Shown here: positions 1,101 to 19,839 of the stretch, piece by piece
Numbering within the stretch: the stretch's first letter is position 1
How the letters are laid out: each line of letters starts with the position of its first letter
From: Ochromonas danica
Lineage: Eukaryota > Sar > Chrysophyceae > Chromulinales > Chromulinaceae
Length of the DNA: 64,000 nucleotides
Direction of reading: 5' to 3'
NCBI GenBank assembly: GCA_015146655.1
Contig: VKHL01000008.1
Coordinates: 1-64,000, forward strand
The notes under the pieces: model-generated
What the model was told of the DNA's origin: nothing
What the model saw: only the letters and a program-made list of their open reading frames with translations
Database searches by the model: none
Translations under genes and position numbers: made by a program

Positions 1101-1529
1101 GCATTACAGAAGACATATTAGCAATTCAGGGAATGGTACGAAAACCGAATACCACGAGCGGGGTGACTCGCCAACAGCGGCGGAATTCCACTTTGGGGTT
1201 TTCGTATTTTCGTATATTCGAGTGCTGTTGAAGAGAAAAAGAGTGAAAAATGGAAGTTTTTCTCGCCACTCTCTTCTCACACATTGAATTGTCAGTTGTG
1301 AATCAAGAATCACGACTTTTGGGAAACTTACGAAAATCCGAATTCCCGAAAGTGGCACCATTCCACCTTCCTCCACAGCTCTACCGTGTGCAGTACAGTA
1401 GTGCAGTGGAGTGGGAGAAGGGACTAACCCCCCCGCACGAAGAGAGAAAGAGCGTCAAGATCTGAAACAAACTGAAAAAAGGCAAGAAAGAAGAAGGGAA
1501 GAAGGAAGGAGGTGTGATGAGGTCAGCAG

Positions 1530-1690
1530 CAGTCACTGTGAGTCACTATCACACTGTCACTGTGTCACTGTCACTGTCACTGTCACTGCTGGAAGGGTCA
1601 TCCTCACAATCAATCCTCTTCTATCCTTCTATCTCTCTCTCAGTCTCTCTCAGTCTCTCTCAGTCTCTCTCAGTCTCTCTATCTCTCTTC
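1530..1690. repeat. GTCACT and CTCTCAGT simple repeats
   Basis: Runs of GTCACT/GTCACTGTCACT occupy roughly 1530-1595. They are followed by about five tandem copies of a ten-base CTCTCTCAGT unit between about 1630 and 1680. The reading frames crossing them encode only serine/leucine/valine repeats and are read here as noncoding. Confidence 0.75.
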
Positions 1691-1813
1691 CTGCTAGCCA
1701 CTCCTTGAAGATCCTCCTCCTCCTCCCAGACTACCCATTTGACTTCTTTGCCTGCTGGAAGTACTGCTTGTGACCAACTTCATTTGTCCTCTTATTAACA
1801 AGAGTACACAAGA

Positions 1814-2809
1814 ATGATGATGTCAATGAAGAAGCTCTTATGGGCTATGTTGCTCTTATTTGATGAGATTATGCTGGCGATGAAAACTCCCAATTCAAGA
1901 TATATTTCCTCTGGACTACGATCCTTCTCCACTGAGTCAACCAAGCGAGCAGAGTTAAGTCAGACTCCTCTCATAATCTTGCCAGGATTTGCTAATAGCC
2001 ATACCGACTATCATTCTTATCGAAATACTGACAACAGTCTAGTTCATTCTTTGAAAGCGAAAGGCATGAAAAATGTGGAAGTTACCAAAATTCATCGTTC
2101 CGATTGGCTAAAACTTCTTGCCTCTGTCAGAAATCCTCGTTTCTGGACATCACAATGCAGTCCTTATGAACTATTTGGATTCTATTTGGATGCGGTGCAT
2201 GATCAAGTAGTGGATACTTACAGAAAGACCGGCAAGCCAGCTATTCTGATTGGTCATTCGGCAGGAGGCTGGCTGGCAAGGTCGATTTTAGCTGATGGGA
2301 GATGGCGTGGCAGAGGCAGATCATTCGATACTTCAGATCTTGTAGCTGGACTTGTCACGCTAGGTACACCGCATTATCCTCCTCATTTTGATCATCCGGA
2401 TCCATCTCGTGGGGCTCTGACCTTCGTGCACGAGAACTTTCCTGGCGCGTATCTTCGAAAGGATGGTATCTTTTATGTCTCTGTCGCTGGAAACGCTGTC
2501 AGAGGAAATCCGCAAGGTTCGACAGCAAGTATTGGAAGACTAGCAGCCCACAGCTACCTCAAGGTGACGGGAAATTTCATCAACAATGGCGATGAGATTG
2601 GTGATGGTTTAGTGCCGGTTAGCCATGCACATCTAGATGGTGCCAAGCAAATCACCTTGGACAATGTTTCTCATGGCACCATTTCTACACGCAAGCTGCC
2701 ATGGTATGGTAACTCTGCTGTGGTTGATCAATGGCTTCCAACTGCTCTGGATTCGTTGAAAATTGGAGTGGATACGCAAAGCAAACCCGGATCTGTTGTC
2801 CGAATTTAA
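1814..2809 (+). CDS. Alpha/beta-hydrolase (lipase/PGAP1-like)
   Basis: Single-exon 331-residue protein starting at the first ATG after an in-frame stop. The lipase-type elbow GHSAGG (residues 147-152, nucleophile Ser149) is clear. GDGLVP (263-268) and NVSHGT (His287) sit where the acid and histidine of the triad are expected. An oxyanion-type ILPGFANS motif lies at about residue 55. Residues 8-23 are hydrophobic and followed by a Ser/Arg-rich stretch, so the protein may be imported into an organelle or anchored. It resembles plant and cyanobacterial lipase-like hydrolases; the substrate cannot be inferred. It is convergent with the gene ending at 3014. Confidence 0.85.
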   Translation: MMMSMKKLLWAMLLLFDEIMLAMKTPNSRYISSGLRSFSTESTKRAELSQTPLIILPGFANSHTDYHSYRNTDNSLVHSLKAKGMKNVEVTKIHRSDWLKLLASVRNPRFWTSQCSPYELFGFYLDAVHDQVVDTYRKTGKPAILIGHSAGGWLARSILADGRWRGRGRSFDTSDLVAGLVTLGTPHYPPHFDHPDPSRGALTFVHENFPGAYLRKDGIFYVSVAGNAVRGNPQGSTASIGRLAAHSYLKVTGNFINNGDEIGDGLVPVSHAHLDGAKQITLDNVSHGTISTRKLPWYGNSAVVDQWLPTALDSLKIGVDTQSKPGSVVRI

Positions 2810-12231: not shown

Positions 12232-15200
12232 CTAATTCATACTAATTTTGGTGGCTAGTGTCAGCTCATTGCTTGTATGGTTTTGAACAGCCTCAAATAG
12301 GAAATTCTTCCATGCCCGAACCATCTCGACGGGGCTGTCGGGATGGAAGAAACGATGTCTGCGCTTTAGTAACTGATAGCTATGAAAGTCACGCAAGTAA
12401 GGCATATGCGCGATTTTAAGAGCAGTATTGACATAGTCAAGGAGGCTGGTGACCACGAGAGGAGAATATAGAGAGGTATCCAACGCTCTCCATTGAGACA
12501 AGATAGAATTATTGCAGTTCTCATCAGGAGCAACCCAACGCCCCAAGACATCATCTTCACCACTTCCTTCGCCTGGTGATAGCTCCGACATGGTTTTAGC
12601 AACGCCATAATGAATCAACTCATACAGACCAAGAACTAATCTCCCTGCAACGCTTCTCTTCGCAGGCAAAGTCACTACAGGTACACCCATAGTCAATGCC
12701 TCCAAGGCGCTAACCAAAGACCCAGTTATTGGAAATGGTTCCAATACTACATGGGATATTTCAATCACTTGCATCATTTCAAGAGGATTTGAAATATTTG
12801 GAAAGAGAATGTGTCGTTTAATCTCTTGTCGACCATCTTCAGGAAATATGGACAATATACGCTCCACCAGAAGTTCCTGCCAAGAAAGGCGAGGTTGCGC
12901 ACTGTCACAGAAAAGCACATAACCAAGATGATCACGCTGCAATATCAATTTTACAGCTTGATCAAAGTCAGGATGAATCTTGGCCGCACTGTGACCAATG
13001 ACGTAAAGATGCGCATTGGGAGGAAGGTTCCAGCTAGCAAGATATTGCGAGCGCAATTCCATGATGCGGTACTGACAGAACAACATGGTTTGTGCTTGAG
13101 AACGATAAAGATCGATAAAGTAAGTTCCAAAATTATGAAAACGTATGAGGCTTTCGCTATAATCGTTATCAGCATCGGCAACCTCTGCTTCAAGTGATGA
13201 AATAAAGTAGTCCACAGTGGGAATGCCTGTGGTATCTGGATGGCCTAACATAGCAGCCTGCACTGGAGCAATGCGTGCATAAGACATGAAATAGGTCAAC
13301 GGGTCCAATGATATCTCCGGGAAGATGAGCACATCCAGTTGCAATGATCTTAAATAAGCAATACTCTTGCCCAGGTTATTGTGATTTTGTAGTATATGCG
13401 TATGTGAAGTGGCTTCCAATAAACGACGCTGGATAGAATCATAAAATACGGACTTTTCTCCACCTTCTACGAAGATCACATGGGTTTCAATATCCTGAAG
13501 CAATGCCATCACCTCTGGATCACGACTGCGACCACAAAGCAGTTCTATAGCTCCAGCACTTACTAGACCTGCATGATGATAAAAGAAAAACCGAGAAACA
13601 AAACCAACGCGAAGCTTTCTACTAAAACCATTGTTCTCTCTCACAATGGATGTGGTAGGCAATGAAGAACTAAAAGCCGCCATTGCAGAAGTGGTGTTTG
13701 ATAATATATTGTTGACATATGACAGTTCTTGCTGTTGCTGTCCCAGAAGCGTACTGTTCAGATCATCAAGCGGGGATTGCAATCGATTTGCCTCCGCTTG
13801 CATCGCCTCAGAAGATTCGATGAAATAACCTTGTCGAAGAGCCGGACATAACGAGACATAGACTTGATATAGCAGATGACGGAGCTCCTTATTGCTTCCC
13901 AAATCATGGAAGATATAATTGTACCCTAAATAGTATGTCATGTGGATTGGAGAAGAATTGTCCACTTCACGACCTTCGCTGTTTAATAATGATATCAAGG
14001 CTTGAGCATGCAAATTACGTAGCAATTGAAGATCTGATCCGCTTGGCATTATTCGATGAATAATTGTAGCCCGTCGCACTTGCAAGTAGAAAGTGGGAAG
14101 CTGTCTGTCAAATGCCACTGTAATTGCTTTATCCATGGTCTGGCGGCTCTCTTCGACATGTCCCATCTGCTCCAACATGAAGGCAATGCTCACTTCCGCT
14201 GACTGCTTACCCAACGCTAAAGCTGAGCGGAAACTGGTCAATGCTTGTTCTATTTGGCCAAGCTATCAATTCATCCATTTTCAATCGGTTAGAGCATTAT
14301 CGCAGAAAAAGAATATTCTGGAGACTTACCGTGGCGAGCAAGTTACCAAGTTCATAAAAGATCGTGGAGGAATGTGGAAAGAGTTGTGCTGCTTCCTCCA
14401 AGCAAGTTCTGGCTTCGTAATATCTCAGCACAGCTTGGAGAAGATCACACTCACGAACTTTTGCCTGCTCGAAGGCTTCTGGAGAGAGCGGCTGCACTTG
14501 TCTGTTCTGGTCTAGTCCACTGCTCTCCCCACTTGCATTAGACAGTGTCGAAGTAATTGCCGAAGATATCTGGGTGGCATTGTGGTAATGCTGTGCAGCA
14601 TCTTCCCACCTACCCAGTTCTTGTAATGCCAACCCCAAGTTGAAATGAGCCACTGGGTCATTTGGATTCAATGCAAGTCCTTTCTCAAACTGCTCGAGAG
14701 CTTCTTCTATTCGACCCAATCTCTTATAGCAAGCTCCTAAGGTACTGTGATAAGGCTGTCCCTGTGCTGGAGGGACATGTAACAAAGCTCGTTCCACATA
14801 TTCGGCTGCCGATAAAAGATCGTTTTTCTTGTAGAACAAGATACCCAATAGATGTAATGCATCAGCATGAGTTGGATTTTCATTCAAGATTGATCGGTAG
14901 ATATTTTCAGCCTGGTCCTCAAGACCGCTATTATGGTATTGGACTGCCACTTGCACAGCGGATCGCATAGTAACCATATCCAATGCTGCCTGAGAAGGTA
15001 AGGCAGCAATACCACCTACGCGAAAATGACGTACAGAGACAGCAATGGCATTGTTCCTCTCTGTGTTCATCCAATAATGGCCATCACTACTTTGTTTTCA
15101 AGTTATATAGAGGGATGATGGCTTACCCATTAGCACCACTCGCAATGCGTACTGTGTTCCCGCTGCTAGACCATCAGCATGAAAGACAACTTCATTTTGT

Positions 15201-15591
15201 TGGAAGCATTTTTCCGCAAAGTCTTGTGCTAAATTCGTGGCAATACCAATGCAGATCTTCGAGTCATGGAATGACCCCGGCGCTTCATATCCTTCTAGTC
15301 TGATCTCAATCTTCAAATTGCCATTCTCTAATACTTGACCATTAGAAGGGTGAATGATTTCTATAGACAAGGGACAGAGTGGAGAAGTTGAGGACAAGGA
15401 GGTGTGTTGGACAAGGAAAGGAATGACATACCAAGACGAGGTCTTTGACGGGAACCCATAAGAAAATTTGAAGGATCAAGTATCACACCATAATGAGTGC
15501 TTGAGAACAATAGTAAAATGGCAACTATCCAACCAAATGAGCATATTGCTTTCATGTCTTCATCACTCAAATGGCAAACAATATCTCCCAC
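12232..15591 (-). CDS. Signal-anchored TPR glycosyltransferase, GT41 (OGT/SPINDLY-like)
   Basis: Four exons fit by phase: 15591-15432, 15360-15127, 15060-14330 and 14262-12232, giving 1051 residues. Order: a hydrophobic signal anchor (about 13-35, after MKAICSF), an Ig/FnIII-like beta domain starting EIIHPSNG, then about six TPRs (roughly 150-390), then the GT41 catalytic half. The catalytic half shows LRVGFVSRFF, DVLIFPE, MLGHPDTTGIPTVDYFIS and VVLEPFP. GT41 enzymes transfer GlcNAc or fucose to Ser/Thr; classical members are nucleocytoplasmic, whereas this N-terminus predicts entry into the ER/Golgi. The second and third introns split the beta domain from the TPRs and interrupt the TPR array. 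The donor sugar is unknown. Confidence 0.87.
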
Positions 15592-15776: not shown

Positions 15777-17883
15777 ATGGGAACTGGCGCGAGTGTTGTT
15801 TCTAAAGAAGAAGTGCATTCTTATCCACAATATCATATTTTAGGTGGAGATGCCAAATTCGACGAACTTCAAGAAGATGGAAAAGTTCATCTTGACAAGA
15901 TCAAAGATCCCTACCTCGCTTATGGCGGTAGATATGCTGGTGATATCAAAGATACAGTCGATTTTAAGTATGTGACATTTGATGATCTCCCAGCATTTAC
16001 GCCAGCGCATCGCTCTCTCATGAGCAAGGTGCTCACAAAGGAACTCTTTGAAAAGCTCAAGAATGTCAAGTCCAGCAAAGGTTATTCTCTTTCCAACGTG
16101 ATTATGACTGGAGTAGTCACTCCCCACTTGGGAGTGGGCGCTACTGCAGGAGACGAAGAATGCTGGGAGCTCTTCAAAGACCTGTTCTACCCCATCATCA
16201 AGGGTTGGCATGGATATGACGCGTATCTCCAGAAACACCCCATGGATCTTGACCCAACCAAGCTCCACTTTACCCCTGAGCAAAGAGATCTCTTCAATCA
16301 CTATGTGGCTTCTACTCGTGTTCGCGCAGCTCGAAACATCTCCGGTTTCGCTCTGCCTGCCGGCACAACTGATGAAGACCGCAAGGCTGTAGAGGAAGTG
16401 CTGAAGCAAGCTTTTGCGGGATTGAAGGGCGAACTGTCCGGACATTATCATGAGCTGGGATCTTTGACTAAGGAGCAAACTGATTTCTTGCTGGAGAGAG
16501 GATTCCTCTTTCAAATCCCTTCCTCACGTAACCTCCTGACTGGTGCTGGAGCTGCTCGTCATTGGCCAAATAACCGTGGCATTTTCTATAATGAAGCTCA
16601 GACTGCGCTTGCTTGGGTAAATGAAGAAGATCATTGCCGTATCATCTCCATGGAGTTGGGCGGAGATATTCCATCTGTCTTCACTCGTTTCTGTGAGCTC
16701 TCTAAAGCCCTTCAAGCTTCTGCAGAGGCCAACGGCACCAAGCTTATGTGGAATGAGACTTTGGGCTTCATGGGTACTTGTCCATCCAACTTGGGTACCG
16801 GACTTCGAGCTTCTGTGATGATCACTTTGCCAGAGTTCAACAAGCTTATGGAGAGCGGCTCTGCCGAAGATAAAATGCTCCTAGAGGAGGTTTGCGAGGC
16901 ATATGATCTGCAGCCACGAGGAAGTGCTGGTGAGCACTCTGCTGCTGTTGGAGCGAAGTTTGACGTTTCCAACAAGCAGCGTTTGGGATTCTCCGAAGTA
17001 CAGCTTGTGCAGAAGATGATTGACGGTGTGACACAAGTCATCCACTTCGAGCAATTGCTTGCCAAGGGAACTCCTCCCAGTGAGGTTCGACACAAGATCG
17101 AGGAGGCTCTTTCCAAGAAGGCCATGTGAGAATCACACCCATATTCTCTCCATGTCAAACAGCAGCAATATAACCATAAATGTATTTTACTATAGCCGCA
17201 CCATCTTTGTGGGACCTCCAGGATCTGGCAAGGGAACCCAAGCTCCTCTAATGAAGAGTCTATTTGGTATTGCTCATCTCAGCACTGGAGATATGCTGCG
17301 TGACGCTGTCGCTCGCGGAACTCCCCTTGGTCAGCAGGCAAAAGCCGTCATGGAATCGGGCAAACTTGTCAGCGATGAACTTGTTGCAGAAATCGTGGCC
17401 GAAGCAATCAACAGACCTGAATGCCGCAAAGGATTTATTTTGGACGGATTTCCTCGCACTGCTCCTCAAGCTGAACTCCTGGACAAGATGTTGGCGAAGA
17501 CCCACACTGCAATCGATTGTGTCGTGAACTTGAATGTGGAAGATGATCTCTTGGTGAAGCGCATCACTGGTCGTCTTATTCATCCCCCAAGTGGCCGATC
17601 TTACAACATCTACTTCAATCCTCCGAAACACGAAGGTGTTGATGATGTTACTGGAGAGCCTCTGGTGAAGCGTCAAGATGACACGGAAGACAAGCTGAGA
17701 ACTCGTTTGGAGGAATTCCACCAAAAGACAGAGCCTGTGCTCCACCATTATGCGAATAAGGTTGCCCAGATTAAGGCCGACGACGGCATGGAAGCCATCG
17801 CAGAGAGAATTCGCACCGCACTTGTGCATATTGTGGAGCAGAAGCAGGCTGCAGCAGCAGCCAGTGTCGCCACACACCACTAA
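15777..17883 (+). CDS. Phosphagen kinase-adenylate kinase fusion (spliced)
   Basis: Exon 1 is 15777-17125 and exon 2 is 17196-17883, joined by a 70-nt intron (GTGAGA...TATAG) that keeps phase 2 and gives 678 residues. Start is the ATG giving MGTGAS, a likely N-myristoylation site. Residues 1-449 form a complete guanidino (creatine/arginine/taurocyamine) kinase: STRVRAARNISG (179-190), NEED (282-285), reactive Cys335 in TCPSNLGTG. CPSNLGTG is closer to creatine/taurocyamine kinases than to the CPTNLGTT of arginine kinases. Residues 450-678 are a complete adenylate kinase: GPPGSGKGT (456-464), DGFPRT and a long lid without zinc cysteines. If the intron is retained, translation stops two bases into it, giving a stand-alone phosphagen kinase; an in-frame ATG at 17152 could then start the second enzyme. 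Confidence 0.85.
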
Positions 17884-17966: not shown

Positions 17967-18683
17967 TCAAGAATTCGATTCTTTCTGATATGCTATCCCA
18001 CAATCACTGATGCTAACTTGTTCTAAGGGCTCGCCACTGGCACTACCAAGTCGATTGATAAGACGTAAAACCTCAAAGCTCTGTTTATCGGCAAGACAGC
18101 CAAAGACCACGTACTGTTCATCAAGATCTGGCATCTTACGAAAGGTAACTTGAAATAAAGATCCATTAGTATCAGGTCCGCGATTGCAATAAGAAATGCA
18201 GCCAGGCCCCGTGTGGCGGAAAAGAAAATTCTCGTCGCGGAAGTAACGGCCATCAAAAATGGATTTCGAACATTCTCCGTCCATTCCCAAAAGATCCCCT
18301 CCTTGAAACATTGAGTTTTTTATGATTCTATGGATACTCGTATTTTTGTAATGGTAGTTGATGCCATCCTCACAAAGGCCTTTGCTACCTGCACAAAGTT
18401 CCAAGAAATTGGTTGCAGCAACTGGCAGTAAGTCTTTGCGAAGCTCAAAATATAGTGTACCAATAACTCGAGGAGAGCTTATTTCACCAGAAGGCAATCT
18501 TCTTCCTCCAGCAGCACTAATTTCAAGAAATACCACTGGATTATCTTCTCGATCCCCCACAAAGCCGGCTGTAGAGGAAGCTGAAGGCGGATTATAAGCA
18601 GGTTTCATCAAATCCAGCGCCAGCATTCGCTCAATACCATCTTCTTCTGCTTTGAAGTTGAGGAGGGACTTTTTTGAGTTCAT
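17967..18683 (-). CDS. Divergent cyclophilin-type peptidyl-prolyl isomerase
   Basis: Single exon, 238 residues. After a 50-residue N-terminal extension the cyclophilin fold is clear: GTLYFELRKDLLP, NFLELCAG, then SIHRIIKNSMFQGGD with the catalytic arginine present, and NGSLFQVTF. Two active-site positions differ from cyclophilin A. The usual GSQFFI is GSLFQV, and the region with the conserved Trp and His reads LDEQYVVFG. It may therefore bind proline poorly or act as a scaffold. No signal peptide is seen. It is tail-to-tail with the kinase fusion (83-bp gap). Confidence 0.88.
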   Translation of the reverse strand: MNSKKSLLNFKAEEDGIERMLALDLMKPAYNPPSASSTAGFVGDREDNPVVFLEISAAGGRRLPSGEISSPRVIGTLYFELRKDLLPVAATNFLELCAGSKGLCEDGINYHYKNTSIHRIIKNSMFQGGDLLGMDGECSKSIFDGRYFRDENFLFRHTGPGCISYCNRGPDTNGSLFQVTFRKMPDLDEQYVVFGCLADKQSFEVLRLINRLGSASGEPLEQVSISDCGIAYQKESNS

Positions 18684-19026: not shown

Positions 19027-19839
19027 ATGATGAGAGGGATGGGCCTCTTGTTATTGTTACAACTGGCATGGATAACAGCCACATATGCAGCACCATGGAG
19101 CCATTTTCTTGACTGGTTTCGATCTAATAGCGAGCAATGGACGATTCTGTTTCCCAAAATGACATTTCTTCGACCTTCACAAGAAGCTCTCCAAGGTGAA
19201 GTAACTCTCCTTTTCATTAACTCCGTCGGCTGCTCTAATTGACACAGTTATACAGTGAACTTGATAATATTCAAAGAAAAGCCAATGACCATTCAGGATA
19301 TCTTTGAAAACAGTACAGATCTGCTTGCCACCTCTCACGCCCATGGCTTCAAGGTTAAGCAACGCCAAGGGATTGTTGGGAAAGGATACGAAGATTATAA
19401 GCGTGTTTCGCAAAGTATATTGTCTCTAACACTTACAAACAAATTAGCTTGGGCATTTATCTCAAAGTTGGTACCTTTGCCCCGGAAAGGTGACACCATT
19501 TGCACAGTCACTCGATTCTATCGCACTCCCATTTGGTCCCTCAATCCTTGTCGCATCACTGAGTTGGTCAATAGCAGAAGGATTGAGCGACAAGATGAGC
19601 ATGATACTTTTGTTGACTATGATGGGCAATGTTTGGTGACAAAGATTGCTTATCAAACTGTGCAAGGACATATGCTCTCGGGTCGAGAAAGCATGGCTGT
19701 TAGACTACTTGGAAATCAGTCAGTTGTACTTGAACTTGTTTCTATATCGCGTGGCTTTGCACTGACGGGACGACTTCTCGGTCCGCTGATAGGTCCCTTG
19801 CAGGATCGCTTCCTGAAAGATCATTTTCACTTTGATTAA
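19027..19839 (+). CDS. DUF1990 (UPF0548) protein with signal peptide
   Basis: Two exons, 19027-19195 and 19256-19839, joined in phase 1 across a 60-nt intron, give 250 residues. The start is the first ATG (MMRG), followed by a leucine-rich signal peptide probably cleaved near TYA/APW. The mature part matches the DUF1990 pattern: a GYEDYKR segment, SKLVPLPRKGDTI, WSLNPCRITEL, AYQTVQGHMLSGRES and a C-terminal SISRGFALTGRLLGP. The family occurs in bacteria and plants and is uncharacterised. The signal peptide suggests secretion or plastid routing. Confidence 0.83.

Follow-up and report, generated by a model that had tools for sequence, protein, structure and literature searches.

An algal gene predicted to join phosphagen kinase to adenylate kinase through an in-frame splice

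Phosphagen kinase (PK) and adenylate kinase (ADK) are two classical energy-buffering phosphotransfer systems. Flagella and muscle contain the two together, and both buffer the ATP/ADP/AMP pool. To our knowledge, the two enzymes are known as separate proteins. In Trypanosoma brucei, one flagellum holds the flagellar arginine kinase AK3 together with adenylate kinases of the paraflagellar rod, and an N-terminal insertion, which the authors compare with the acylated calflagins, specifies the flagellar location of AK3 (PMC4517888). In the relevant passages of that paper the PK and ADK of the flagellum are separate polypeptides, unlike the fusion described here. Among stramenopiles, PKs and some ADKs rise in flagellate or spore stages: Phytophthora infestans induces a PK early in sporulation and has high levels of two ADKs in zoospores (PMC3471859), and in zoospores of Aurantiochytrium three PKs are higher, as is one of the eight ADKs (PMC12221091); the parts of these two papers that deal with the kinases treat them as separate proteins and mention no fusion. 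A fusion of TPI with GAPDH, two enzymes of one energy pathway, is widespread in stramenopiles (PMC3527533). As presented in the pertinent sections of that source, it differs from a PK-ADK fusion in its enzymes and in carrying a mitochondrial targeting signal, in place of the putative myristoylation motif found here.

Among solved structures, the best matches of the PK half reported below are two-domain PKs, an arginine kinase (4RF6) and a taurocyamine kinase (4WO8), each matching in two stretches. These likewise carry a second enzyme domain in the chain; theirs is another PK, whereas here it is an ADK. The top matches of the ADK half are the long-form ADKs of yeast (1AKY) and human (AK2, 2C9Y). 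In contrast to these, the fused ADK domain lacks an independent start, and its translation would continue from that of the PK in front of it.

The window analysed is the first 64 kb of the 380-kb contig C8, in a genome assembly of 31.2 Mb and 337 contigs. The features of the locus are as follows.

15777-17125, plus strand: exon 1, phosphagen (guanidino) kinase; 449 codons and 2 bases of codon 450
17055-17125, plus strand: PK tail, residues 427-449, a candidate linker with limits taken from the domain matches
17126-17195, plus strand: predicted GT-AG intron of 70 nt, GTGAGA...CTATAG, phase 2
17127-17129, plus strand: TGA inside the donor, from reading the sequence; if the intron were retained, PK would end in ...SKKAM and this stop
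17152-17154, plus strand: ATG in the ADK frame, within the intron and 22 nt past the PK stop; the rival start
17196-17883, plus strand: exon 2, long-form ADK with lid; 228 codons and a stop codon, preceded by the third base of the Ile codon that the intron interrupts

An earlier note on this DNA had proposed that removal of 17126-17195 in phase 2 joins PK to ADK, and the joined reading bears this out. The frame is open throughout: the coding sequence is a multiple of 3 without an internal stop, its product has 678 residues, and the protein reads ...LSKKA-I-RTIFVGPPGSGKGT... across the junction. Four Pfam domains lie above their cut-offs in this one protein, namely PF02807 at residues 77-142 (86.3 bits, cut-off 25.7) and PF00217 at residues 205-426 (201.1 bits, cut-off 22.4) in the PK half, followed by PF00406 (186.2 bits, cut-off 26.8) and the lid domain PF05191 (58.6 bits, cut-off 26.6) in the ADK half; PF13207 also matches, overlapping the ADK match. 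About 24 residues lie between residue 426, where the PK family match stops, and the first ADK strand (residue 451), and some solved PKs align as far as residue 432. Our guess by eye is that the PK tail is helical; it would serve as a linker. The 801-nt junction stretch 16700-17500 matches the genome at full length in a single place, its sole other match being the PK part of a paralogue on contig C39. The earlier note had also described both enzymes as complete. For the ADK this holds for the catalytic domain; it does not hold for the N-terminus, which has neither a methionine of its own nor the N-terminal exon of a free-standing ADK on contig C88.

The NEEDH and CPSNLGTG motifs, which we take to be active-site motifs of PKs, are kept in the PK half (WVNEEDHCRIISM and TCPSNLGTGLRASV, aligned to 4RF6). 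Aligned with yeast 1AKY, the ADK half covers the P-loop, LSTGDMLR at the AMP site, ILDGFPRT, the lid and the later arginine segments. Both halves are probably active. Tyr68 and Glu314, presumably substrate contacts of arginine kinase, are not kept: when the PK half is aligned with domain 1 of 4RF6, GVGVYAGD is replaced by GVGATAGD and GEHSES by GEHSAA. Because both positions are replaced, arginine is not the default guess for the substrate. The PKs of Aurantiochytrium have been assigned to a phosphotaurocyamine pathway, according to the relevant part of the source (PMC12221091).

Gene structures were predicted jointly on both strands by a model whose training set comprised the window and the next 200 kb (264 kb in all). 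The PK-ADK gene was withheld when the coding, splice-site and length parameters were trained, and its 70-nt intron counted as non-coding background. An earlier one-strand model had chained unrelated genes via introns that were too cheap; it was discarded, and the joint model alone was used. The model predicted 95 genes and 229 introns in the 264 kb, and its output at the locus was exactly 15777-17125 joined to 17196-17883. The fusion scored 181.65 and two genes 171.72, a difference of 9.9 nats, and the fusion was retained in 23 of 24 settings of the intron and start penalties; two genes were returned in the remaining setting, that with the costliest introns and the cheapest starts. The model's second choice, a 37-nt intron at 17126-17162, was 9.1 nats worse and falls below the minimum of 50 nt among the introns used in training.

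The 228 predicted introns outside the PK-ADK gene, which are model predictions made without RNA, have a median length of 65 nt and a range of 50-146 nt. At 70 nt, the intron stands at the 72nd percentile of this set, in agreement with the earlier description of it as one of ordinary size. Its donor is at the 27th percentile, its acceptor at the 46th and the summed site score at the 29th. The donor is thus below average and has T at position -1, as do 15 of the 228. Locally, the acceptor is the best-scoring one in 17131-17500 and the donor the second best in 16701-17196. As a control, the other predicted gene ends were searched for a donor within their final 33 nt that is followed 50-146 nt later by an acceptor, with both scores at least as high as those of the candidate and the stop skipped; such a pair was found at none of the 94 ends, a result that is not fully independent of the model and the percentiles, since all three use one set of trained scores.

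The genome contains nine exon-level ADK matches on eight contigs, and the nearest free-standing relative of the ADK half is the gene on C88. Its first exon, MSVVDISKVATVELIREIERRVRCSELKNE(K), is followed by a 66-nt GT-AG intron and then by RTIFFGPPGAGKGTQAP... The intron, which was first read by eye, interrupts, in phase 2, the codon that immediately precedes RTI, and the model trained on C8 predicts it exactly (1330-1421 joined to 1488-2124 of locus L004), with weak splice sites (donor at the 10th and acceptor at the 27th percentile). An intron is needed here, because the exon 2 frame contains no ATG between the upstream stop and RTI. Alignment of the C88 protein with the Plasmodium AK2 structure 3TLX begins at residue 7 of the former, so that the first exon belongs to the ADK family. 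At the junction, C88 has AA|G CGT ACC ATT (K-R-T-I) and the fusion AT|C CGC ACC ATC (I-R-T-I), so that codon position and phase are identical.

This shared intron position suggests that the PK replaced the small first exon of an ADK. After duplication, a PK gene would have been placed ahead of an ADK gene, and a splice donor at the stop codon of the PK would then have been joined to the ancestral first-intron acceptor of the ADK, displacing its first exon. Retention of that acceptor, with the first exon exchanged for a PK, is the simplest account of the two gene structures as they now read. The ADK half and the C88 ADK are 66.5% identical over 209 codons, and codon positions 1/2/3 differ at 29.7/13.4/64.6%. 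Against human AK2 (2C9Y) the fused ADK scores 224.7 bits and the C88 ADK 260, which places the fused ADK further from AK2.

Three PK matches were found in the genome, on C8, C15 and C39. Over 437 residues, the PK half and the C39 PK share 79.6% identity, and codon positions 1/2/3 differ at 18.8/11.0/57.4% (437 codons). The C39 protein begins with MGAGAS and has a short C-terminal tail. Less similar to the PK half is the PK on C15, with 44.8% identity over 359 residues of its main exon; the gene model gives it three exons.

L001 (G000:C15:132802-136455), 2863-2925, 2716-2784 and 1495-2631, minus strand: three predicted exons of the C15 PK

Judged by eye, the first of these exons, which begins MFSKLSSRAIPAIAFTAGAGA, is predicted to encode a leader resembling a mitochondrial presequence. 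If that leader is mitochondrial, the C15, C8 and C39 PKs together would make a mitochondrion-to-membrane phosphagen shuttle. An ADK P-loop pattern was not found within roughly 1.4-1.5 kb downstream of the C39 and C15 PK genes, and none of the nine ADK matches listed lies on either contig. Unfused PK and ADK genes persist in the same genome as the fusion. In the comparisons with C39 and C88, third codon positions differ far more than first and second positions, so both halves look selected as protein. Since the ADK is conserved and has no other credible start, this is indirect evidence for the spliced form.

The locus could instead hold two separate genes, or a dicistronic message, with PK ending at 17129 and ADK starting at 17152 with an additional MSNSSNITINVFYYS before its first strand. 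The ADK frame is indeed open from 17152, the sole ATG upstream of the P-loop in that frame, and two genes are what the model chooses when two introns are forbidden, as well as in the one penalty setting mentioned above. The earlier note had argued that, with the PK stop 22 nt ahead of this ATG, a promoter for a second gene would not fit. The gap was confirmed, and gaps below 160 nt separate just 3 of the 33 same-strand neighbour pairs in the 264 kb (18, 72 and 155 nt), the smallest two of which may be split gene models. The start context at 17152 is poor as well: among 87 predicted starts it ranks at the 8th percentile, compared with the 98th for the PK ATG. The additional stretch is AT-rich like introns, with 34% GC against 48% and 51% in the exons, and an intron occupies the equivalent site in the C88 paralogue. 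Two genes are accordingly very unlikely. An assembly artefact joining two unlinked genes can be set aside as scarcely conceivable: the junction coincides with a well-formed intron that shares its acceptor position with the free ADK, which misassembly would hardly yield, and no alternative arrangement of 16700-17500 occurs in the assembly.

A different possibility is that the intron is real and the unspliced PK alone is the main product, the fusion being minor. The claim that retention of the intron would give PK alone follows from the TGA at 17127-17129 in the donor. That stop within a below-average donor speaks for such a product, as does the C39 paralogue, a PK without ADK. Against it, the ADK exon is constrained as protein and has no other credible start, which argues that a translated spliced form must have mattered; PK as the main product is most unlikely. 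Strong support for the in-frame joining of PK and ADK by splicing comes from the identically placed intron of C88, from the gene model, whose training excluded the gene, and from the shortage of space and the absence of a good start for a second gene. One gene thus very probably encodes a single PK-ADK polypeptide of 678 residues.

In such a polypeptide, the ADK half would convert AMP + ATP to 2 ADP and the PK half would recharge the ADP from phosphagen, giving a net conversion of AMP + 2 phosphagen to ATP. The fusion would hold both activities at a fixed stoichiometry in one place. Its N-terminus, MGTGAS, has the form MGxxxS, which we take to be an N-myristoylation motif and which is common to the C39 paralogue. 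Myristoylation there would hold the fusion at a membrane, plausibly that of a flagellum; judging from the motif, the chances of membrane anchoring are about even. A motile flagellum is likely in this organism, given a radial-spoke gene on C41. The retained and spliced forms could also act as a switch, in which one transcript gives either a myristoylated PK alone or a membrane-tethered PK-ADK that recharges AMP, ADP and ATP at a single site such as the flagellar membrane. We consider such a switch improbable, and if it did operate, AMP signalling and phosphagen buffering would be coupled or uncoupled by splicing. Elsewhere in the genome, at about 1000-2058 of L007 (G000:C34:110820-114296), a nucleoside-monophosphate kinase exon is preceded by an Ala/Pro-rich frame with MGGSASLYRK, which may be another myristoylation-like N-terminus.

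The PK and ADK families are ordinary ones, and their combination is not described in open-licence PMC papers, among the matches listed; domain-architecture databases may already record the pair. In viral contigs, a scan with the fused protein gave 5 stretches and a scan with the PK pair alignment gave 73, with no relative confirmed in either, and in prokaryotic genome contigs none of the 76 stretches from the PK pair alignment was confirmed. An algal fusion is not expected in either set, so these scans say nothing about algae. A natural fusion would argue that a fixed one-to-one proximity of PK and ADK is worth selecting, and would offer a single polypeptide for assaying the coupling of phosphagen to AMP. 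With the unfused paralogues still present, one genome shows how such a fusion can arise, in which the last exon of one gene is spliced to the first-intron acceptor of another.

The genes next to the locus were also recorded. On the minus strand, window positions 12232-15459 hold one predicted gene with TPR repeats and a weak glycosyltransferase-41 (GT41) match that stays below the cut-off, as in O-GlcNAc transferase-like proteins. A frame for a cyclophilin-type peptidyl-prolyl isomerase lies at 17967-18683 (minus strand), convergent with the fusion gene and 83 nt past its stop, and 19255-19839 (plus strand) matches DUF1990. At exon level, the light-harvesting family PF00504 has 47 matches in the genome, which is compatible with the stramenopile origin supposed in the earlier note. 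Together with the radial-spoke gene, these matches make a flagellated alga most likely. Four PF00504 matches in G000:C224:8673-16382 have equal scores and are spaced 2407 nt each, which looks like a recent tandem array.
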